Shown here: positions 3,522 to 39,338 of the stretch, one piece after another
Position numbering within the stretch: position 1 is the first letter of the stretch
How the letters are laid out: every line of letters begins with the position of its first letter
Source of the DNA: a virus
IMG/VR virus record: IMGVR_UViG_3300036791_000604
Span: 1-39,673 of that record
Length of the DNA: 39,673 nt
Reading direction: 5' to 3' (one strand)
The notes under the pieces: generated by a model
Databases searched by the model: none
What the model was told of the DNA's origin: nothing
What the model saw: only the letters and a program-made list of their open reading frames with translations
Program-made: the position numbers and the translations under genes

Positions 3522-3955
3522 AGCGCCCTGCGAATCTGCTCGGCGGTGCAACCGATCGAACACGGCGCGAGCTCGAGCTCGGCCGGCCCGTGTGGCGGGT
3601 CGATGAAAAGGACCGTCACCGTGCCCGCGAGGCAGACGGGGCAGAACGAATCCAGCCGGCCCACCGACGGATAGATCGGCGCGAATCCGGTTCGCTGCTC
3701 GAGCGCCCGCCAGACGCGACGAACCAGCCACGCATAGGTCCCCGGCGCCGGAGCGGGCGCCGGCTTGGGAGGTGGCGGCGCTTTCCAGCGTCGGGCCTTC
3801 GCGCTCATTGGCGGCGCGACCTTCGCGTGGCAGTCCAAACACGTCACCGCGCCGGCGGCGCACGAGTAATGAACCTCCCCGGTCGCGCCGCACTTCTCGC
3901 AAATCGGATCGCCCCAATTCAGCACCCACTCGAGCCGTAGCGGGTCACCGCTCAT
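3518..3955 (-). CDS. Zinc-finger protein with two cysteine clusters (145 aa)
   Basis: The ATG at 3955 overlaps the upstream stop as ATGA. The N-terminal half has CEKCGATGEVHYSC followed by CLDC, a likely four-to-five-ligand zinc ribbon. A proline-rich linker (PPPPKPAPAPAPG) separates it from a C-terminal region with FCPVC and CSIGC, a possible second site. Two zinc modules joined by a flexible linker suggest nucleic-acid binding. It sits between an Rpf-like gene and a larger unknown gene. The family is not recognised. Confidence 0.7.
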   Translation of the reverse strand: MSGDPLRLEWVLNWGDPICEKCGATGEVHYSCAAGAVTCLDCHAKVAPPMSAKARRWKAPPPPKPAPAPAPGTYAWLVRRVWRALEQRTGFAPIYPSVGRLDSFCPVCLAGTVTVLFIDPPHGPAELELAPCSIGCTAEQIRRAL

Positions 3956-4341
3956 AGCCACCCGGTTAGATAGGCGCACGTCCAAGCGCCGGCGCCAGCG
4001 TCGCGCCAGATTCGCCGCGCGACGATCGACTGTTGCAGCTTCGAGGCCAGATACGGGAACGCCGCGAAGACGCGGCCGCCATACGCGGCCCACGTCGAGA
4101 GCTCGATTTGATAGAGCCCGGAGCTCGAGTACGGGTGCGACTGCTCATGCACCTCACCCCGCGACTCGCACTCCACGATCGTCGCGGGGATCGCGTATCG
4201 CGACTGGCCGCCGGCGGCGGTCCAGCCACGATACGGTTCGACGCGCTCGAGCCGCGACTGCCTCGGCAGATCACTAGGACCGGCAGGGGGCCGGGGCGCG
4301 ACGATCAGACTAACAGCGAGTACCGCGACTGCGGTCGCCAT
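3952..4341 (-). CDS. Secreted Rpf/transglycosylase-like protein (129 aa)
   Basis: The protein starts with a hydrophobic export segment (MATAVAVLAVSLIVAP, residues 1-16). It then carries a compact lysozyme-like fold: IPATIVECESRG places the likely catalytic Glu, followed by SSSGLYQIELSTWAAYGG and repeated alanine helices ending AWTCA. This is the pattern of Rpf and transglycosylase-like domains, which cut peptidoglycan glycan strands. The ATG at 4341 overlaps the SSB-like stop as TAATG. Finding a secreted wall hydrolase inside a DNA-recombination operon is odd. It could act in superinfection exclusion, wall remodelling or host resuscitation. Confidence 0.78.
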   Translation of the reverse strand: MATAVAVLAVSLIVAPRPPAGPSDLPRQSRLERVEPYRGWTAAGGQSRYAIPATIVECESRGEVHEQSHPYSSSGLYQIELSTWAAYGGRVFAAFPYLASKLQQSIVARRIWRDAGAGAWTCAYLTGWL

Positions 4342-21888: not shown

Positions 21889-23427
21889 CTACACCGATAC
21901 GGTTATCGGCGTCTTCTGAATTTCTATTTGTACCCACTCGCCCGGAGGGGAGACGCGGACGCGAACGACCGCGTGCACCTCGCCATTGGCGATTGTCTCG
22001 TCGGTGTTGACCGAATCGGTGTCAACCATGAACGCGTCTTCGGGCTCGTCGCCATACAACGCCCCCAGGTTGAACCACTCGAGACAAATACCGCCGAGCG
22101 CGACTCCCAGTCGCGTGAACAGTCGCCCCGCGCCGTCGATCTGGCGGTGCACAAATTCCTCAGCGGCGTTGTCGAATTCGTGCGCCATCGCGAGAATCGT
22201 TCGCGATCCGGGAAACCACATCCAATTTGTGTCGAGCGGACCCGCGACCGTCCGAGTGCCATAGGTTCGCAGTACGCCGGTTCGCATCATTCTCGGCAGA
22301 GTGACTCCGAGGTCGTTGAGCAACTCGCGGGTTGTGTCGTCAAACCCCAGCGGAATCCCTCGAGCGCCGAGCGATTCGCCGTTCGCGCCGGCGGCGGCCT
22401 CGTTGGGGTTGCCGGTGGCGCCGTCGGCCCTCGCGATGATCCCGGCTTGCACCGCCGAATAGGGCACTAGTGTCGTCGTGCCGGCGGCGGGACCCGGATA
22501 GATGATTCGCGGCGCGAGGGCGCACGCGTACCGCGACCCGGTGATCCCGTTGAGTCCACTCGCGTCAGCCGCGATTGTCGTCTCGTCGGTGTCGTTTAGA
22601 TCGAGCAGCGCCGGCCGGCGCATCCTGTCGCAGTGGTCGAGAATCGCGGCGTGGGTCGTGTAGTCGGTCGCGCCGGGGTAGAGGACCTGCGCGAACCCCA
22701 TCGAATACGTGAACCGATCGAGCGTCGTGGTGATCGTCGCGGGGTCGAGGTTTGGGTCGTCGGTGCCGCCGGCGAGTGGCGTGTCGGGCGCCTCGAGGAG
22801 CGGGTCCTCCTCGGTCGCAGTGTCGGCCTCGAGCTCGAGGTAGATAGAGGTCGTCTGGCCCCACGAGAGCGCGTCTCCGACCGTTAGAAGCTGCCGCGAC
22901 CGTTCGACCACGATCCCGCCATCGGTGACCACAATTCGCACCGGGACGCCGGCCGCCTGGGTGTCGCTGCCGTTGCCGTTCCCGTTCCCCTCGGCTAGCG
23001 CGACTCCCTCGCTCTTTGTGGCCTTCTTGACCGCCGCCTTGCGCTTGGGGGCGGCCGCGAGTAGCGGCGAAACTTCGGCCACGATCGCGACCGTCACGTC
23101 GTTAGCCCAAGTGCCGGCGGAGCTCGCGTGGACGTGCAACTGCCCAACGTCGGCCTCGGCCGTCGCCGCGAGTGGGCCGACGAGTCGCAGGAACCAGAGG
23201 TTGCCGCCACGCTCAGCGAAGAACGCGCGAACCGAGTTGTGCGCGATCACCCCGCCGGAGCGAGGGCCGAACAGGTTCTCCCAGACCGCGAGTGACTGGA
23301 TATGCGCCGGCGTCATCGTCGGGCCGCGCTCGGCGGTCCCGACCATGAACGCTTGGCCGGAGTCGAGCTCGCCACCGCCACCCGGCGAGGAGTCGGTAAT
23401 CAGGATGTCAGTTCCGGGTCGCGGCAC
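21889..23427 (-). CDS. Tail sheath protein (512 aa)
   Basis: The start GTG at 23427 follows GGGAGGCGAAA. The N-terminus (ILITDSSPGGGGELDSGQAF, then MVGTAERGPT) and the segment LAVWENLFGPRSG match tail sheath domain I. The C-terminal region (FPGSRTILAMAHEFDNAAEE, then INGEVHAVVRVRVSPPGEWV-like ending) matches the conserved sheath domain. Residues about 125-165 form a Lys-rich, Gly/Asn-rich insertion (KRKAAVKKATKSEG ... GNGNGNGSD) that is probably surface-exposed. The sheath shows the tail is contractile. Confidence 0.9.
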   Translation of the reverse strand: MPRPGTDILITDSSPGGGGELDSGQAFMVGTAERGPTMTPAHIQSLAVWENLFGPRSGGVIAHNSVRAFFAERGGNLWFLRLVGPLAATAEADVGQLHVHASSAGTWANDVTVAIVAEVSPLLAAAPKRKAAVKKATKSEGVALAEGNGNGNGSDTQAAGVPVRIVVTDGGIVVERSRQLLTVGDALSWGQTTSIYLELEADTATEEDPLLEAPDTPLAGGTDDPNLDPATITTTLDRFTYSMGFAQVLYPGATDYTTHAAILDHCDRMRRPALLDLNDTDETTIAADASGLNGITGSRYACALAPRIIYPGPAAGTTTLVPYSAVQAGIIARADGATGNPNEAAAGANGESLGARGIPLGFDDTTRELLNDLGVTLPRMMRTGVLRTYGTRTVAGPLDTNWMWFPGSRTILAMAHEFDNAAEEFVHRQIDGAGRLFTRLGVALGGICLEWFNLGALYGDEPEDAFMVDTDSVNTDETIANGEVHAVVRVRVSPPGEWVQIEIQKTPITVSV

Positions 23428-30764: not shown

Positions 30765-30815
30765 CTAAGAACATCGTAAGAGCCCCTTGACCGAATAGAC
30801 GATATCGTCTATTGT
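30765..30815 (+). promoter_or_regulatory. Rightward promoter P1 with 20-bp palindromic operator
   Basis: TTGACC at 30787-30792 and TATTGT at 30810-30815 are separated by 17 bp, a good sigma-70-type promoter. The perfect palindrome AATAGACGATATCGTCTATT at 30794-30813 fills the spacer and overlaps the -10, so a bound repressor would block transcription. The block 30765-30811 is repeated at 31814-31860 with 43 of 47 bases identical, including TAAGA words 11 bp apart upstream of -35. It drives the ArdC-like gene. Confidence 0.85.
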
Positions 30816-30877
30816 ATGCCTCACGTTGGATACAGGCTCGGAGACGAGCTCGAGAGACCCCGATAGGAGACCCCCAA

Positions 30878-31759
30878 ATGACTAAAAAGGCGTATGCCAA
30901 AAAATTCACTGACGAGCAGAGGGCCGAATACAAGGCCCAACAGAAAGAGGAGGCGCAGGCTCGACTCGCACAAGCGGTTGCGTCGATGCAGAGCACCGAC
31001 GGATTCCAGAACTGGCTCCGAGCCCGCGCACGTTTCCACAATTACTCATTTGGAAACACGCTCCTAATCCTGGCCCAGAACCCGGAGGCGACTCGGGTGG
31101 CGGCGGCCTCAGTGTGGAAGGACCTCGGCCGGTTCCCGGCTAAGGGTTCACACGCCCTGAGAATCTTCGCGCCGATCGAGTGGTTTGTCCCTTGTGATAG
31201 TGACGAGCAGGGCGCCCGCTTCAATTCAAAAAAGAATCGGTGGGAGAAAAAGGTCCGCTCTTTCAAGTTGGTTCCGGTTTTTGACGTATCACAAACCGAC
31301 GGTGACGAGCTCCCCACTCCGCCGATGCCGGCCGAGCTCGAGGGAGACTCACATAAGGACCTCGAACCGAAGCTAGTGAAGTTGGCGGCAGAGCTCGGTT
31401 TCTCGGTTGACACTGAGGCGCTCGAGGGTGATATGGGCGGATACTGTGACCCGACGGCTAAGCGGATTGTCCTGGCCGAAGGACATTCGGCTAACGGTAG
31501 GGTGAGGGTACTAGTGCATGAAATTGCGCACGCTCTCGGTATCGGTTATAAGGACTACGGTCGGAGCATGGCCGAAGTTCTAGTCGAGTCGGTTACCTAT
31601 ATTGTCCTGGCCGGCGCTGGACTGGACATTGACGCCGCATCGGTTCCGTATGTGGCGGGGTGGGCCGGTACTAGTGACGCCCAAACCGCACTCGAGCAGT
31701 TTGCCGGCAAAGTTGACGAGACGGCTAGGCGTATCGAGTCGGCTATTTATGCCGACTGA
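30878..31759 (+). CDS. ArdC-like anti-restriction protein with zincin metallopeptidase domain (293 aa)
   Basis: The start ATG at 30878 follows ATAGGAGACCCCC. Residues 1-140 match the ArdC N-terminal DNA-binding domain (DGFQNWLRARARFHNYSFGN, TLLILAQNPEATRV, then WKDLGRFPAKGSHALRIFAP). Residues 160-293 hold a zincin-like metallopeptidase with HEIAHALGIGY (214-224) and a downstream Glu (MAEVLVES, 231-238). ArdC-type proteins are carried into or made early in new hosts by phages and plasmids to blunt restriction or other defences. It is the first gene under P1 and is followed by a strong hairpin. Confidence 0.87.
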   Translation: MTKKAYAKKFTDEQRAEYKAQQKEEAQARLAQAVASMQSTDGFQNWLRARARFHNYSFGNTLLILAQNPEATRVAAASVWKDLGRFPAKGSHALRIFAPIEWFVPCDSDEQGARFNSKKNRWEKKVRSFKLVPVFDVSQTDGDELPTPPMPAELEGDSHKDLEPKLVKLAAELGFSVDTEALEGDMGGYCDPTAKRIVLAEGHSANGRVRVLVHEIAHALGIGYKDYGRSMAEVLVESVTYIVLAGAGLDIDAASVPYVAGWAGTSDAQTALEQFAGKVDETARRIESAIYAD

Positions 31760-32868: not shown

Positions 32869-33509
32869 CAACCTATAACGGTTATACGAATTACGAGACC
32901 TGGGCCGTCGGGATGTACCTTGACGGCAACTACGATGGAGAGGGTACCTATAAAGACATCCTCGAGATTACTCGAGAGCAGGGCGCCGACAAATATGACA
33001 CGGCGTCGGAGCTCCAAACCTACCTACAGGGTACGATCGAAAACTCCGACCCCGACGGTATAGCCTCGAGCGGGATTATCGGAGACCTGCTAGGTGCCGC
33101 ACTGTCTGAGGTGAACTGGCTCGAGCTCGCGGAGCATAAGTGCACCGAGATAATGGAGGAGTGGACAACTGAGGCTAAGGACCTCGGAGCGTCGGCCGCT
33201 AGGGACGCCGCAACCTGGGTGACCGACGGTAACAGTTCGGCCGGCCACGTTCGGCGCCTGCTTACCATGCTCGAGGAGGGAGACCCGGCGGCCGACGGTA
33301 TGCTGCCCAATTCACCTAACCTATCGGGTGAGTGGGCCGATGATCCGACGCCCTTGTCCCTGGCTCGAGATGTAACAGGACTTGACGAACCGGCCGACGA
33401 AATTATGGACGCCCTGGCGACCGCGTTCGAGGCCGGCGTGTCCGATGCCTTTATGCCGGCCGTGGAGGCCGAGCTCCGCCGGTTCATCGGTGAGGAGGTG
33501 AGCTCGTGA
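32865..33509 (+). CDS. NYETW-motif phage/plasmid protein (214 aa)
   Basis: The N-terminus YNGYTNYETWAVGMYLDGNY is a motif I recognise from many phage and plasmid proteins of unknown function. The C-terminal half (WVTDGNSSAGHVRRLLTMLE, then NLSGEWADDPTPLSLARDVT) is acidic and helical. Such proteins commonly sit in accessory regions with ArdC-like genes, which fits here. It is acidic throughout, so a DNA-mimic or inhibitor role is possible but speculative. The ATG at 32865 follows TTGGAGACCCCGAA. Confidence 0.74.
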   Translation: MTTYNGYTNYETWAVGMYLDGNYDGEGTYKDILEITREQGADKYDTASELQTYLQGTIENSDPDGIASSGIIGDLLGAALSEVNWLELAEHKCTEIMEEWTTEAKDLGASAARDAATWVTDGNSSAGHVRRLLTMLEEGDPAADGMLPNSPNLSGEWADDPTPLSLARDVTGLDEPADEIMDALATAFEAGVSDAFMPAVEAELRRFIGEEVSS

Positions 33510-33739
33510 CACTCCCCGCTCGAGTGATTGAAGAGCTCGAGGGGCTCGGGCCGGCTACAGTGTCAGACCTGGCCGAGTCACTAGGAGAGCCGGCGTACCT
33601 AATCCGTACAGTGGTACGCCGGCTAGTGCAGACTGGCATCCTCGAATCAGAGGAGCGCTATCAACCTAACGTTACCGGCGTGCGCCGTGGTCGGCAGTAT
33701 TGGCTAGCGGAGGATGCCGGAGAGGAGACCCCAAAATGA
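33506..33739 (+). CDS. Winged-helix DNA-binding protein (77 aa)
   Basis: The GTG at 33506 overlaps the previous stop as GTGA. The sequence RVIEELEGLGPATVSDLAES, then LGEPAYLIRTVVRRLVQTGI and RRGRQYWLAED, is a compact winged helix of the MarR/ArsR type. Its last residues EETPK are encoded by the next gene's GGAGACCCC motif. It may regulate P1/P2 or another phage promoter. Confidence 0.77.
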   Translation: MTLPARVIEELEGLGPATVSDLAESLGEPAYLIRTVVRRLVQTGILESEERYQPNVTGVRRGRQYWLAEDAGEETPK

Positions 33740-33906
33740 CTAGTGGTAAGGTGGGCCGGCCGTTGGTCGGCTCACCTATTCACATTCGGCTAGGCGTCGC
33801 GCTGCTCGAGCGGATCGATCGTTACGCCTCCGCCCACGGTGAGAGCCGAGCCGTGACTATCCGCCGGCTATTGGCTCGAGCGCTCGAGCTCGAGGAGACC
33901 GACTAA
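33736..33906 (+). CDS. Ribbon-helix-helix protein (56 aa)
   Basis: The ATG at 33736 follows GAGGAGACCCCAAA. The sequence SPIHIRLGVALLERIDRYAS, then ESRAVTIRRLLARALELEE, is a typical CopG/Arc-type ribbon-helix-helix: one strand and two helices. Such dimers bind short palindromes. It is a candidate repressor of the two operators in this block. It overlaps the next gene as TAATG. Confidence 0.8.
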   Translation: MTSGKVGRPLVGSPIHIRLGVALLERIDRYASAHGESRAVTIRRLLARALELEETD

Positions 33907-34220
33907 TGGCGGCTCTACGTTTCACCGGGAAATGGATCGAACCGATTCGGGCCGGCGTGAAGACTCAGACACTCCGAGCTCAGTTACCGGCTACCGTGAT
34001 AATGGCCGATCGATTCGACGCCCTCAATGGTTACCGTAAGGGGTCTCCTCGGTTTGCCGAGCTCGAGGTCCTGGCGGTCGATCGGGTCGGCCGTGACGAG
34101 CTCACCGACGCCGACGCTAGGCGTGAGGGGTTCGAGACCCTAGCCGAGCTCCTCGAGGCGCTCGAGGTCCTGTATCCCGGCCGAGCTCCGCTTATGCGGG
34201 TCCGGTTCCGGGCCGTCTAG
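33906..34220 (+). CDS. ASCH-domain-like (PUA-fold) protein (104 aa)
   Basis: The start RFTGKWIEPIRAGVKTQTLR is the classic ASCH opening (a strand, helix and K-T-x-T/L-R), followed by a strand LEVLAVDRVGRDELTDADAR and an EGFE helix region. ASCH domains are RNA- or nucleotide-binding PUA-like folds; some act on RNA or modified nucleosides. It is the last gene of the rightward block, just before a bidirectional hairpin. The role in phage biology is unknown. Confidence 0.8.
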   Translation: MAALRFTGKWIEPIRAGVKTQTLRAQLPATVIMADRFDALNGYRKGSPRFAELEVLAVDRVGRDELTDADARREGFETLAELLEALEVLYPGRAPLMRVRFRAV

Positions 34221-34288: not shown

Positions 34289-35497
34289 CTAGCGGACGGC
34301 TCGAGGCCGTCTCCGGGGCTTAGGTGAGCTCTCAGAGGGTGCCCGTTTTCGGGCCGACGCCGGCTCGGGAATACTAGAAATCAGTGCATCGGCCGTTTCG
34401 AGCTCGAGGCGTGGGCCGACATATCGAAAGCTAGCCGTCGGCCGCCGGCCGGCCGTGAGGAGACGAGCTCCGCCGGCTAGCGTCGGCCTCGGCCGATACT
34501 TGGACTGTAGAGGTCCGGGGCGCGAGATTAGTTCCCAGTTGGGGGAGCGGTCTCGAGTGCGGATCAATCCGGGATGCGCGAGGACCGCGTGCACTCGATA
34601 GCCGATCGTGGTATAGGCGGCCGCGACGTAATCGGAGAGCGCCGGCCCGATGCCGAGACCCTGCCAGTCGGGGAGGCAGACGGTTCGCGCTAGCGCCTTG
34701 AGGTTGCGGTGCGCCGGTTGGGGGCGGTGGAGGATTGCCGAGAAAGCCGCCGGCGTCCCATCGGCCGTGAGCTCGTAACACGCGGCCGTGTGATTGAGGC
34801 CGGCCGTCAGATAGTGAAATGGAGCGTACCTCTGCCATCGCTCCCGGTGGACGCGACGGACCTCGCAGTGGAGCTCGGGTCGTCGTTGAAGACACCTCCA
34901 GCCGAAGTCGATGGTCGCGGGCTCGAACGTCCAGTCCGGTTGCAGCCAATCGATCACGTCGAAGTGGCAGGTCGCGGCGACGAGCCGCCGGCCGGGGTTC
35001 CGCCGAATGTACTTCTGGGCCGCGTGGGCGCCGATCTTCGCGACCTGGCGATCGACAACGGAGGTGAATTCATCGATCACGACCGGCTTATCCGCCGGCG
35101 TCTCGAGCAACGCCCGCGCGAGCGCGACGCGAAACTGCTCACCCGTCGAGAGGACCTTGTGCGGTCGCAGCCACGCCGGAATCGTGTTGAACCCGACCGC
35201 CGAACACGCGGCCGTGATATCCGCGATCGAGAGCTCGGCGTCGAAGTCGTCCAGCACCGAGTCAGCCCGCCACTTGAATCGCGCCGGCGTCCCGAACGCG
35301 TGGTTTAGGACTGTCGTCTTCCCGGACCCCGACGGGCCGACGATCAGACCGACAGTCCAGTCGCGGTCCTCGAGCGGGAGCTCCCCCGTCCAAGTGATCG
35401 CCTCGCGCTCCCGTGGCGGCACGTCGAACATCGCGGAGACCTGTTGCGCCCGCACCGAGCTCGAGAGTGGCGTGGTCACGGTCACGTCGATTTTCAT
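34289..35497 (-). CDS. ABC-type ATPase fused to GNAT acetyltransferase-like domain (402 aa)
   Basis: Residues 1-200 form an ABC ATPase: Walker A GPSGSGKT (54-61), signature LSTGE (116-120), Walker B VVIDE (139-143), H-loop His178. Residues 200-370 form a GNAT-like domain with RYAPFHYL (223-230) and the acyl-CoA loop PDWQGLGIG (276-284). This matches the known ATPase-acetyltransferase fusion class (COG2401-like). The C-terminus is a basic tail. Mu Mom, a DNA-modifying enzyme, is also GNAT-fold and has a comparable HY motif, so DNA modification is a possible role (inference). The ATG at 35497 follows GGGAGG and overlaps the small upstream gene as ATGA. Confidence 0.83.
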   Translation of the reverse strand: MKIDVTVTTPLSSSVRAQQVSAMFDVPPREREAITWTGELPLEDRDWTVGLIVGPSGSGKTTVLNHAFGTPARFKWRADSVLDDFDAELSIADITAACSAVGFNTIPAWLRPHKVLSTGEQFRVALARALLETPADKPVVIDEFTSVVDRQVAKIGAHAAQKYIRRNPGRRLVAATCHFDVIDWLQPDWTFEPATIDFGWRCLQRRPELHCEVRRVHRERWQRYAPFHYLTAGLNHTAACYELTADGTPAAFSAILHRPQPAHRNLKALARTVCLPDWQGLGIGPALSDYVAAAYTTIGYRVHAVLAHPGLIRTRDRSPNWELISRPGPLQSKYRPRPTLAGGARLLTAGRRPTASFRYVGPRLELETADALISSIPEPASARKRAPSESSPKPRRRPRAVR

Positions 35498-35649
35498 GCG
35501 GCCTCCCATTCCTCGAGGGTGCGACGGAGATTCGCGATCAGGTTCGCTTCGGCCGGGACGAGCGCCGGCTCCTCCTCGAGCGCGGCGATCAGTTCGCGGA
35601 TCGACTGCGCGAGCTCCTCGAACGGGTCGGGCTCGGAGTCACCGATCAC
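35494..35649 (-). CDS. 51-aa acidic small protein between two GNAT genes
   Basis: The GTG at 35649 overlaps the GNAT stop as GTGA, and the TGA at 35496-35494 overlaps the ATPase start as ATGA. It encodes an acidic helical peptide (IGDSEPDPFEELAQSIRELI, then AALEEEPALVPAEANLIANL, ending EEWEAA). It exactly bridges the two genes, so it is probably translated. It might be a small subunit or adaptor of the GNAT/ATPase pair. Confidence 0.66.
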   Translation of the reverse strand: MIGDSEPDPFEELAQSIRELIAALEEEPALVPAEANLIANLRRTLEEWEAA

Positions 35650-36170
35650 GACTCACCGCGAATCAGCGCTCGCGCCTGGAGCTCGTCGGTCGGGCCGCCG
35701 CAATAGCGAAAGACGGCGTTGGGTCTGACGCCGGCGTTCCAGCGCCAATGCCGGCCGGGTCGCTTTTTGATCTGGCCGGGTCGCTGGAGCAACGTCCACG
35801 TCGGAGAGCGATCGAACGACCGGATCAGTGGCGGGTGCGCCGGGTACATATGCAACTCCATCCCCAGCGCGTTGTAGGCGCCACCGAGCCGGTCGAGCAG
35901 CGCGAACGCGAGTCCCAGCCCTTGCCAGTCCGGGAGCGTCACGACGCGACTCACGCCGCGAACCTTATGCCCTGTCGCGCCTGGGTGCGGCCGATGCAGG
36001 ATCGCCGCGAACGCCGCCGGTTGGCCGCCGGCCTCGAGCTCGAAACAGGTCGCGCCTCGGTGGAGCTCGGCGGTCAGGTAGTGGTAGGGCGCATAGCGAC
36101 TCCACCGCGAATACGCGACGCGACTGATTGAACACTCAAGCAACGGTCGCGGCGCGAGCTCCCGCCACAC
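35646..36170 (-). CDS. Stand-alone GNAT acetyltransferase-like protein (174 aa), paralogue of the fusion
   Basis: The protein aligns by eye along its whole length with the C-terminal domain of the ABC fusion: RWSRYAPYHYLTAEL, AAFAAILHRPHP, then VVTLPDWQGLGLAFALLDRL and AHPPLIRSFDRSP. The acyl-CoA loop reads PDWQGLGLA (80-88), with the last Gly replaced by Ala. The GTG at 36170 follows GAGGGG and matches the domain boundary of the paralogue; longer upstream frames would overlap the ParB-like gene. Probably works with the fusion protein. Confidence 0.8.
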   Translation of the reverse strand: MWRELAPRPLLECSISRVAYSRWSRYAPYHYLTAELHRGATCFELEAGGQPAAFAAILHRPHPGATGHKVRGVSRVVTLPDWQGLGLAFALLDRLGGAYNALGMELHMYPAHPPLIRSFDRSPTWTLLQRPGQIKKRPGRHWRWNAGVRPNAVFRYCGGPTDELQARALIRGES

Positions 36171-36187
36171 GAACCGCCCCTCGAGCG

Positions 36188-36841
36188 TCAGACCATCAAC
36201 GCTTGGACCTGCAACCCCTCGGCTTGCAGCTTCTTGAGCCATTCGCCTTGCTGGTGCTCGTCGGCGCAAACCACCATCAGCCGGTACTCGATCGCGCCCA
36301 ACTGCTCGGACGCGTCCCCCGCCGGCGCCAGTTGCGAGAGGAGGTGATCGAGGTCCTCCTGCTTGAAGCCGGTCGCCTCGAGAGACGGCAGTTCACCGAG
36401 CAACTCGGCCAACATTTCGTTGTCATAGCTACCGAGCTCCGAGAGCCGGTTGTCCACGAGCGCGATCCGGGTCGCCTCCTCCTCGTCCACGTCCACGAAC
36501 GTCACCGCGACCTTCCGCCAGCCGAGCTCGAGCGCCGCCTGATAGGTGTGATTGCCGGCCAGAATCTCGGAGGTGCGACGGTTGACGACGAGCGGTCGAT
36601 ACTGGCCGTGAGCGCGAAGCGAGGTCTTGATTAGGTCCGGTTTACCGTGACGCGGGTTCCGCTCTCGAGGGTGAATCGAGCCCACGTCCACCGCGAGCCC
36701 CTCGAGCAATCGCAACTCTCGCGAACCGGACGCGACTGCGGTCGCGGCGGGGTTTTTCTCCCGGCCACTGTCCCCCATCTCGCGGTTTTCGCGGCCTTGG
36801 GTCCCCCCCCCACCCTCTTCTAGTGGCGAATCTGGTTGCAT
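36188..36841 (-). CDS. ParB/sulfiredoxin-fold nuclease-like protein (217 aa)
   Basis: Residues about 45-140 show the ParB N-terminal fold: LAVDVGSIHPRERNPRHGKP, then LIKTSLRAHGQYRPLVVNRR, then ILAGNHTYQAALELGWRKVA and IALVDNRLSE. In phages this fold can bind or nick DNA, hydrolyse nucleotides or accompany base modification enzymes. The C-terminal part is a charged helical region. The start is uncertain: the ATG at 36841 overlaps the HNH gene by 22 bp and includes a poly-G tract; the ATG at 36778 is an alternative. It is the first of the putative modification cassette. Confidence 0.8.
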   Translation of the reverse strand: MQPDSPLEEGGGGTQGRENREMGDSGREKNPAATAVASGSRELRLLEGLAVDVGSIHPRERNPRHGKPDLIKTSLRAHGQYRPLVVNRRTSEILAGNHTYQAALELGWRKVAVTFVDVDEEEATRIALVDNRLSELGSYDNEMLAELLGELPSLEATGFKQEDLDHLLSQLAPAGDASEQLGAIEYRLMVVCADEHQQGEWLKKLQAEGLQVQALMV

Positions 36842-37110
36842 CGCAAATGCGCGGCTCGCAGGTTCGATAGGTCATCGGTGCCGCCGTCGCGGACTCGGCG
36901 CACATGGTCGGCAGAGTCGGCGCCTGCCAGTCCACATATCCAACAGATGTGCGAGTCGCGCATAAGTACGCGACCCTTTCTTTTCGCCCATCCTGGGGAC
37001 GCACCTGGCCTCTGCTTGGGTAGCTGATGTGAGGTGCACCGACCGCCATAGGTTGCGGTGTTGGGGCAGCGGGGCTCGACACATACCACCCCTGCCCTAC
37101 CGACCCCCAC
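36820..37110 (-). CDS. HNH endonuclease (96 aa)
   Basis: An N-terminal Cys cluster (CVEPRCPN ... GRCTSH) precedes a clear HNH core: ICWICG (Cys56, Cys59), ADSADHVRRV (Asp68-His69), GGTDDLSNLRAAHLRCN (Asn83, His88, Cys91). The enzyme would cut DNA; phage HNH proteins often assist terminase or drive homing. It ends abruptly after the motif (CNQIRH). The start could be the GTG at 37110 or at 37089. Confidence 0.84.
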   Translation of the reverse strand: MGVGRAGVVCVEPRCPNTATYGGRCTSHQLPKQRPGASPGWAKRKGRVLMRDSHICWICGLAGADSADHVRRVRDGGTDDLSNLRAAHLRCNQIRH

Positions 37111-38314: not shown

Positions 38315-38569
38315 CTATCCCTGGCCCACGGGCACGACCATAACCGTGACGCCGTGGGACTCCGCGAGCGCTTTCGCGTGGATCATCAGGTCCCCGAACG
38401 CGTCGAGCGTGTTTTCGTAGCCGGCTAGGCCGATGCCACCTCGCTGCCCGGTGTCGATCAGGATGATGGCCTTGTCACCCTCGCGGTATTCGGAGTGGGT
38501 TTGAATCGCTTCGATCGCGACGTTCGAGAGTCGCGTCAGCCGATCGTGGGGCTCGCCTTCGGTTTTCAT
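38315..38569 (-). CDS. Small hypothetical protein (84 aa)
   Basis: The ATG at 38569 follows AAAGGAGACCC, the start-associated motif. The alpha/beta sequence (LTRLSNVAIEAIQTHSEYRE, then GDKAIILIDTGQRGGIGLAG, then GVTVMVVPVGQG) suggests a compact fold. No function is assigned. It overlaps the HNH-repeat gene as ATGA. Confidence 0.66.
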   Translation of the reverse strand: MKTEGEPHDRLTRLSNVAIEAIQTHSEYREGDKAIILIDTGQRGGIGLAGYENTLDAFGDLMIHAKALAESHGVTVMVVPVGQG

Positions 38570-39057
38570 GGGTCTCCTTTCTGGGCGCTTCGCTTGACGC
38601 CTCGTGGTACTGGGTCGAAACCAGCCGCCGCAATACCAGCGTTCCACGATCCAAAAACCTCTCGCACCGTCCGCTGGCACGGGTGCGACGTTCCGGCAAC
38701 GCCTAGGCCGGGGGTTCGCCGCAAGGTGCGATCCCATTGTTTCGAGGTGGGTGGACCACCGTGGCGCCGAGCCCACCTTTGAATCGCCGCGATGATTCGC
38801 TCCTCGGTCCAGTGTCGGCCGCCGAAACGGTCGTTGTATAGCTCGCGGCCGATCCACTGGAATGTCTCGCGGCTCGCAGGAGACCCCCCACTACGGGCTT
38901 GCCTCGATCGTTTGTACTCGGCTCGCGCCTCGGGGTGTCGAGCAAACCAGTCCTTCCTATGGCAAGTGCGACACATACCTCGACTAAACGCAGGTCGTCC
39001 GCAAGCACAACTGCGACCCTTTTGCTTCTCGTACAGCCTCCTTGTCGGGGCGCTCAC
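38566..39057 (-). CDS. Homing-endonuclease-associated repeat protein with zinc finger (163 aa)
   Basis: The N-terminus has CACGRPAFSRGMCRTCHRKD, a likely zinc finger. Residues 75-150 match the HNH-associated repeat: RHWTEERIIAAIQRWARRHG, GPPTSKQWDRTLRRTPGLGV and VREVFGSWNAGIAAAGFDPV. Such repeats bind DNA. No complete HNH catalytic core is visible, so this may be a DNA-binding protein rather than an active nuclease. The GTG at 39057 overlaps the upstream stop as GTGA. Confidence 0.72.
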   Translation of the reverse strand: MSAPTRRLYEKQKGRSCACGRPAFSRGMCRTCHRKDWFARHPEARAEYKRSRQARSGGSPASRETFQWIGRELYNDRFGGRHWTEERIIAAIQRWARRHGGPPTSKQWDRTLRRTPGLGVAGTSHPCQRTVREVFGSWNAGIAAAGFDPVPRGVKRSAQKGDP

Positions 39058-39338
39058 AGCGCCACCCTGTTGCGCCGTCGGACGACGCCGGCGTCTTTGA
39101 CGAGCTCGCCATCGGAGAGGATCGGCCATTCGCGGGCGGTGAATTGGCCCTTTGCGATCAGGACGACATCGGTCGGGGTCCCAGTGCTCGGCGTCAGTCG
39201 CACCGCCCAGCGATAGAAGTAGCCGACCCGATGGTGCGTGAAGTCGGGACCCTCGGCCCAGTTGATGATGCGACGAATTTCGGCTCGCGCCTCCGGGGGG
39301 ACGGTCTGCATCCACTGGGCTCCACCGCGAAAAGCCAT
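39054..39338 (-). CDS. Hypothetical first gene of the right-arm operon (94 aa)
   Basis: The alpha/beta protein (QTVPPEARAEIRRIINWAEG, then VGYFYRWAVRLTPSTGTPTD, then VVLIAKGQFTAREWPI) has no recognised family. The ATG at 39338 has a weak ribosome site. It lies just inside an inverted repeat and the right att, so it heads the leftward right-arm operon. Confidence 0.62.
   Translation of the reverse strand: MAFRGGAQWMQTVPPEARAEIRRIINWAEGPDFTHHRVGYFYRWAVRLTPSTGTPTDVVLIAKGQFTAREWPILSDGELVKDAGVVRRRNRVAL

Follow-up and report, generated by a model that had tools for sequence, protein, structure and literature searches.

A widespread ParB and ABC-ATPase/GNAT gene pair of phages as a candidate DNA base acyltransferase

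IMG/VR record IMGVR_UViG_3300036791_000604, analysed here over its full 39,673 bases (the window), comes from a contractile-tailed phage with genes for a tail sheath (21889-23427), portal, major head protein, RecT and terminase large subunit. Between 34289 and 36841, one minus-strand block encodes a ParB-fold protein, a stand-alone (solo) GNAT protein, a 51-aa protein and an ABC ATPase fused to a second GNAT domain (ABC-GNAT). An earlier note made from the sequence had described four coupled genes here, and we confirmed all four open reading frames (ORFs), each overlapping its neighbour; a convergent ASCH gene next to them had been missed. The ParB protein, whose C-terminal module we call TAIL, most likely works together with ABC-GNAT as a DNA base acyltransferase. 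The features are listed below; loci compared with the window carry L numbers, and L002 is its close relative.

36188..36841, minus strand: ParB/Srx-fold protein, 217 aa, leading the cassette (Pfam PF02195, ParB_N, 5.4e-8, above the cut-off; phrog_723, 3e-42)
36191..36289, minus strand: TAIL, the C-terminal ParB module, EYRLMVVCADEHQQGEWLKKLQAEGLQVQALMV, a predicted beta-alpha-beta unit
35646..36170, minus strand: solo GNAT acyltransferase, in an ORF open to 36269 (207 codons; Acetyltransf_1 6e-6, above the Pfam cut-off)
35494..35649, minus strand: 51-aa acidic protein, probably helical, with a counterpart in L002 only
34289..35509, minus strand: ABC-ATPase/GNAT fusion, 406 aa (phrog_11143, function unknown, 8e-100 over residues 9-369; ABC_tran 1.5e-6, above the cut-off)
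34910..35509, minus strand: ABC ATPase domain (Walker A GPSGSGKT, signature LSTGEQ, Walker B VVIDEF, switch His CH)
34400..34897, minus strand: fused GNAT domain (YAPFHYL, ARTVCLPDWQGLGIG, AHPGLIR, W325), keeping every invariant GNAT column
33906..34220, plus strand: YqfB-like ASCH-domain protein, convergent with ABC-GNAT at 68 nt (Pfam ASCH 1.6e-5)

The TTG start of the solo GNAT ORF falls within ParB, and an alternative GTG at 36170, preceded by GAGGGG, appears the likelier start. The AlphaFold2 (AF2) model of the solo protein has GNAT topology (pLDDT 90.6, pTM 0.85; Foldseek GNAT matches at 1e-6). The fused GNAT half scores 0.017, under the Pfam cut-off, and its identity rests on phrog_11143 and on the AF2 model of the fusion (pLDDT 89.9, pTM 0.82), which also matches ABC nucleotide-binding domains in Foldseek (7e-8). 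The motifs RYAPxHYL and PDWQGLG, which the earlier note saw in both GNATs, are real and belong to invariant columns (H-Y, R, P-D, Q-G and W across 61 GNAT halves); the ABC motif columns are invariant or nearly so in 60 aligned sequences. With complete ABC motifs and a GNAT carrying HYL, RxV and PDxQG, the window protein has the features by which we define the ABC-GNAT family. Compared with L002, the cassette genes evolve under purifying selection (dN/dS 0.11-0.21), the 51-aa ORF giving 0.30 over just 40 codons. Among PADLOC defence proteins there was no full-length match; the partial matches were ABC motifs to mad3 and the ParB domain to a type II methyltransferase model.

The family is widespread. 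ABC-GNAT is matched in 56 INPHARED records, and in 33 of these the match covers 80% or more of the protein; we found at least 594 candidate stretches in viral contigs and 416 in bacterial genomes (many from Planctomycetota and Nonomuraea among 80 of the 416); a DNA search of plasmids found none. From 178 representatives at <95% identity, 171 loci were compared after removal of the window and six loci cut by contig ends. ParB and/or TAIL lies upstream of ABC-GNAT in 168 of these and is missing from three. The 168 comprise 136 with ParB-TAIL immediately upstream, 22 with ParB-TAIL more distant, five with TAIL only, three in which ParB has a divergent tail and two single polypeptides. The window ParB carries a TAIL too, and an upstream ParB-TAIL is the arrangement of nearly all loci. 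Over all loci the median ParB to ABC-GNAT spacing is -4 nt, and a 22-nt overlap is frequent. The conserved core is a two-gene unit of ParB and ABC-GNAT. This qualifies the earlier view of a four-gene cassette: the full set recurs only in L002, and its ParB/ABC-GNAT core in hundreds of loci.

The TAIL itself appears specific to this partnership. A TAIL hidden Markov model (HMM), built from 177 ParB tails with the stand-alone proteins of L044 and L045 left out, was searched against 22,331 non-seed ORFs and matched ABC-GNAT partners only: a 49-aa protein in L045 (9e-10), a 42-aa protein in L044 (1e-5), and the planctomycete loci L162 and L194, in which ParB, TAIL, ABC and GNAT share one ORF. Some of the TAIL-only loci are explained by truncated ParB genes; the clear stand-alone TAILs are those of Mu-like phages of Pseudomonas and Porphyromonas. 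Given the near-universal linkage, the single-chain fusions and the free-standing forms, TAIL probably docks on the ABC ATPase, and ParB may be an adaptor that can be lost. We had considered the 42-49-aa ORFs of the Mu-like phages as counterparts of Com, and rejected this because they lack a cysteine ribbon and turned out to match the TAIL of ParB. The L044 ORF at 3876-4004 (Porphyromonas phage007a) is annotated as 'acr candidate protein'; since it is the TAIL that stands alone as partner to ABC-GNAT, we doubt an anti-CRISPR function.

The other two genes of the block are local additions. Among the loci compared, the solo GNAT and the 51-aa ORF occur only in the window and in L002, whose ABC-GNAT is 91% identical and whose 51-aa ORF is 78% identical over 40 codons. 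In a 177-row domain tree (quick method), the two GNATs of the window lineage group as sisters in a single clade with an SH-aLRT support of 93, which upholds the earlier claim of paralogy. The fused copy has evolved faster (branch 1.01, against 0.42 for the solo copy). Because the copies are sisters, both keep all invariant residues and both are under purifying selection, we read the solo GNAT from these sequences as a local, lineage-specific duplication followed by divergence, possibly in donor or target. Two acetyltransferase subunits, as proposed earlier, are thus a property of the window lineage and not of the family. We dropped the idea that the solo GNAT is a remnant of another lineage's second fused gene: it is the sister of the local fused copy, albeit on a long branch. 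L092 (878-4138) presents another local duplication, two tandem ABC-GNAT genes flanking genes for PanD and a family III CoA-transferase downstream of a single ParB-TAIL.

A small acidic ORF overlapping GNAT genes could suggest a toxin-antitoxin or abortive-infection unit, in which the 51-aa protein would be the antitoxin of one or two GNAT toxins. GNAT toxins such as AtaT are known. The 51-aa ORF had no significant family match in any library searched and is missing from every locus other than L002, PADLOC gave no toxin match, and the unit that is conserved is ParB with ABC-GNAT; we consider this explanation highly unlikely.

Gene context gives indications of function. Arthrobacter phages Sonny and EastWest are collinear in this region (gp68/gp73 64%, gp72/gp78 80%, sliding clamps 45%, gp74/gp80 32%), and their ParBs have a common N-terminal domain (57% over 118 aa). 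Downstream of ParB, a small ORF precedes a Mom-like gene in Sonny, and ABC-GNAT follows in EastWest. The ParB tail differs with the enzyme, being CPNC in Sonny and TAIL in EastWest; in phage Antuna, a ParB with a CPSC tail stands directly upstream of a Mom-like gene. At L236 (2469-3002) and L237 (2145-2720), the ParBs before Mom-like genes end in CPSC/CPNC half zinc ribbons that recall the Com zinc finger of Mu. The position of ABC-GNAT also resembles that of com-mom: in the Mu-like Porphyromonas phage007a (transposase, MuB-like, Gam-like) it lies at the right end past the tail genes, as com-mom does in Mu, and in Komp_PAO1_1 (transposase, Gam) it lies past the tail-fibre genes. Related ParBs keep company with other DNA-modifying enzymes as well. 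One (Typha gp1) is just upstream of a queuine tRNA-ribosyltransferase-like (TGT-family) gene, and others are domains inside proteins annotated as DNA methylases.

ABC-GNAT also lies recurrently near terminase and portal genes, as might be expected of an ATPase for packaging or recombination whose GNAT domain is structural; SMC/Rad50-type ABC ATPases function in recombination. Modification late in infection would equally produce a terminase neighbourhood, the GNAT motif residues are near-invariant family-wide and acyl-supply genes are adjacent, so that we regard this alternative as very unlikely.

These acyl-supply genes directly follow ABC-GNAT in several lineages. A pair encoding PanD (aspartate 1-decarboxylase, Pfam 2.6e-28) and a short family III CoA-transferase (1e-10) is found in Jace/L114, L092, L093, L096, L155, L172 and L173, and parts of the pair in L129 and L147. 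PanD produces beta-alanine, which makes beta-alanyl-CoA the natural prediction for the donor. In the two Mu-like phages, a formyltransferase-fold gene takes the place of the PanD pair (3e-17, 1e-10).

ASCH genes make up a second recurrent neighbourhood. They belong to four HMM groups and stand tail-to-tail with ABC-GNAT in 44 of 170 loci, where most overlap its end; few ASCH matches lie elsewhere in these loci. Mapped on the ABC-GNAT tree, the ASCH label changes 23 times, and supported branches force no fewer than 13 of these changes; the association has therefore been gained or lost repeatedly. When 50 whole virus records were checked with the curated Pfam ASCH, 23 had exactly one ASCH each. 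The reciprocal search found ABC-GNAT within 4 kb in 19 of 80 related ASCH loci, a count that leaves out L321, where the match is a generic ABC one only.

The window ASCH aligns to PDB 9kyf (1.5e-4) and 1te7 and keeps K-T-x-T-x-R and E, the equivalents of K21, T24, R26 and E74 of E. coli YqfB, which suggests a YqfB-like protein. Replacement of these residues abolishes or strongly lowers YqfB activity; the enzyme hydrolyses N4-acetyl-, isobutyryl-, hexanoyl- and benzoyl-deoxycytidine and several dCTP forms, and is also active on N4-acetylcytidine (PMC6972931). The likeness has limits: the window ASCH scores 5.5e-7 and 29.8 bits against the NCBIfam N(4)-acetylcytidine aminohydrolase NF003443, under its 93-bit cut-off, and the H70 equivalent is Asp. 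When we searched for further relatives of the window ASCH, the sole match was on the contig of L002. Because the window ASCH is YqfB-like with these residues kept, and TmcA, which makes N4-acetylcytidine, is a fold-level neighbour of the GNAT, N4-acyl-cytosine is our leading, if tentative, candidate for the product in the window lineage. The main text of the MetaGPA cytosine-modification paper mentions none of the cassette's domains.

The same chemistry could instead be directed at RNA, with acylation of tRNA or rRNA cytosine as by TmcA/NAT10 and an ASCH protein that reverses or reads ac4C in RNA. Like ABC-GNAT, TmcA joins an ATPase and a GNAT in a single chain, and its product chemistry would suit an ASCH/YqfB partner. 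TmcA (2zpa) is among the fold matches (4.5e-5, rank 35), NAT10-type chains are weakly present in the profile search (E 0.74), and a substrate of E. coli YqfB is N4-acetylcytidine itself. The ATPase of TmcA is, however, of the helicase type and not ABC, its substrate is RNA, and its match to the window GNAT is at fold level only. DNA is favoured by the constancy of ParB as partner, by the swap with a Mom-like gene at one locus and by the com-mom position, and we think RNA acylation improbable.

We favour DNA acylation because of the syntenic swap between Mom-like and ABC-GNAT genes, the com-mom-like position, the occurrence of related ParBs with other DNA-modifying enzymes, the near-constant ParB/TAIL upstream, the conserved ABC and GNAT catalytic residues, the acyl-supply and ASCH neighbours, and a prediction already in print. 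By this context, the earlier suggestion of an ATP-driven nucleic-acid acyl-modification system held up. A specific relationship of the GNATs to Mom and a role in anti-restriction were not supported, and the results on both weigh against DNA acylation, together with some features of the neighbourhoods. With ten diverse Mom proteins, hhalign gave no significant match to the GNAT (probability 1.6%, E 0.031); in that non-significant alignment HYL of the GNAT and HYS of Mom are in register. A narrow Mom profile set gave no match. In Foldseek, generic GNATs rank first, protein acetyltransferases (RimI, GCN5) included, and the Mom homologue LP65 Orf128 was matched at 4e-4 amid many GNATs. As profile matches were not significant with either the narrow or the diverse set, we regard specific Mom homology as unsupported and do not file the window GNAT under Mom; it may work in a Mom-like way all the same. 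In PX29, ABC-GNAT and a Mom-like gene are at separate places, and no ParB was recognised in the two genes before ABC-GNAT. A search of the window found no PanD, family III CoA-transferase or formyltransferase. Most other ASCH partners have K..E.R and not the K..T.R of YqfB; these may be readers rather than hydrolases, PUA/ASCH domains having been described as modified-base binders (PMC12839542; PMC12707154).

The palindrome counts belong with these points and reveal strong avoidance in the window. Of the palindromic hexamers expected at least four times in the window, 17 of 38 are absent and an eighteenth is single-copy, compared with 32 of 2,690 other hexamers missing or nearly so. The absent sites include CCGCGG (expected 38), GCGCGC (expected 22), CCCGGG, GTCGAC, GACGTC, TGATCA and TTAA (expected 18), among others; CTCGAG (143), GCCGGC (176) and GAGCTC (125) are abundant. 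The median observed/expected ratio of palindromes was 0.725 in ABC-GNAT viral loci and 0.755 in controls, which were other viral loci chosen without host matching (p = 0.69). The idea that modification relieves palindrome avoidance is thus not supported, as ABC-GNAT loci avoid palindromes like controls, and general protection from restriction is not apparent. Modification could be sequence-specific or partial, or serve another purpose. Elsewhere in the window, 30812-31759 (+) encodes an ArdC-N-domain protein with a metallopeptidase part (DUF6782) that matches a PHROGs anti-restriction family and is possibly another counter-restriction gene of the same phage.

The rank of RimI and GCN5 among the closest solved folds is also what one would expect if the GNATs redirected the host by acetylating its proteins, in the way that phiKMV Rac acts on RNA polymerase, and passages of PMC7824862 discuss such phage GNATs. 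This would leave the ParB-TAIL, the single-chain ParB fusion and the exchange with Mom unexplained. Host-takeover genes are, moreover, usually early, and many ABC-GNAT copies adjoin terminase genes; protein acetylation seems to us a quite improbable role.

For DNA acylation, we envisage that the N-terminal domain of ParB would engage DNA and that its TAIL would dock onto the ABC ATPase. The ABC domain is without a membrane domain and so is probably not a transporter; it could act as an ATP-driven clamp or conformational switch. The GNAT, whose fold and acyl-CoA-binding motif are observed, would move an acyl group from acyl-CoA to the exocyclic amine of a base, by analogy with TmcA/NAT10 on RNA cytosine and Mom-type enzymes on DNA. 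In the window lineage, a single ParB/ABC engine may serve two acyltransferases that have different donors, bases or sites, and the product is probably removed or recognised by the ASCH protein encoded next to them. Elsewhere, PanD with the CoA-transferase, or the formyltransferase, would supply the donor. It is tempting to speculate that the system serves to protect or mark the phage's DNA at a late stage of infection. A fuller scheme would have one DNA acylation family making N4-acyl-cytosine (beta-alanyl in PanD lineages, formyl-derived in Mu-like phages), with ASCH as eraser or reader where present and interchange with Mom through exchange of the ParB adaptor tail; as a whole, we consider it rather unlikely.

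Among the closest described systems is that of Tenacibaculum phage pT24, whose ABC-GNAT belongs to the same family as the window protein (32% over 92% of the length, 5e-54). Passages of PMC7824862 state, with pT24 as example and citing an original paper of the same group (its ref. 136), that a GNAT/ABC-ATPase protein was predicted to place on a DNA base an acyl modification of uncharacterised kind, the function proposed here for the window ABC-GNAT. Those passages contain no TAIL, ASCH, PanD/CoA-transferase or Mom swap, and ParB is absent from the main text of PMC7824862. To such a system the window adds the duplicated stand-alone GNAT and the 51-aa protein. The functional class was thus predicted before, and parts of the ABC-GNAT neighbourhood may have been reported already in the original paper. 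What we believe to be new is that TAIL is a specific partner and also occurs on its own and within a single chain, that Mom and the ParB tail are exchanged jointly at a syntenic locus, that a convergent ASCH gene recurs, that genes for PanD/CoA-transferase and a formyltransferase lie nearby, and that the GNAT of this lineage is duplicated. A literature search for COG2401 found no paper.

Com-Mom of Mu is alike in a small partner gene directly upstream and a position after the tail genes, and may be alike in a GNAT fold with an H-Y motif after the first helices; Mom-like genes are ParB-linked in Antuna and Sonny. It differs in that there is no significant sequence or profile homology and that the window has a fused ABC ATPase and a ParB-TAIL partner, versus the Com zinc finger of Mu. 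The DpdA-type 7-deazaguanine systems recall the Typha arrangement of a related ParB before a TGT-family gene, and include a ParB-like DpdB (PMC12839542), yet they exchange bases by transglycosylation, compared with the acyl transfer proposed for the window.

To our knowledge, acylation of phage DNA has been characterised only for Mom, so ABC-GNAT, if we are right, would be a second, ATP-driven route to it. ParB would then serve unrelated DNA-modifying enzymes as a shared adaptor whose tail is specific to each enzyme, and the donor-making and eraser genes named here would predict the chemistry. Sonny and EastWest amount to a natural experiment, and the partner protein, the Mom swap and the genes for making and removing acyl groups render the function directly testable. 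Widespread as it is, the family goes under annotations such as iron transporter and hemin importer, or under hypothetical protein. In INPHARED, the labels include iron-siderophore transporter (Streptococcus and Oenococcus phages) and hemin importer (vB_VmeM-32), and in Enterococcus phage 9184 the ABC-GNAT gene overlaps a DNA polymerase annotation.

Around the cassette, the ASCH gene ends a tight plus-strand run with overlapping start and stop codons, in which a helix-turn-helix gene (33506-33739) and a ribbon-helix-helix-like gene (~33736-33906) precede it. On the other side, the ORF of an HNH endonuclease gene (36820-37110, -) shares 22 nt with the beginning of ParB, and an ORF at 38566-39315 (-) carries a homing-endonuclease-associated HNH repeat (1.7e-9).

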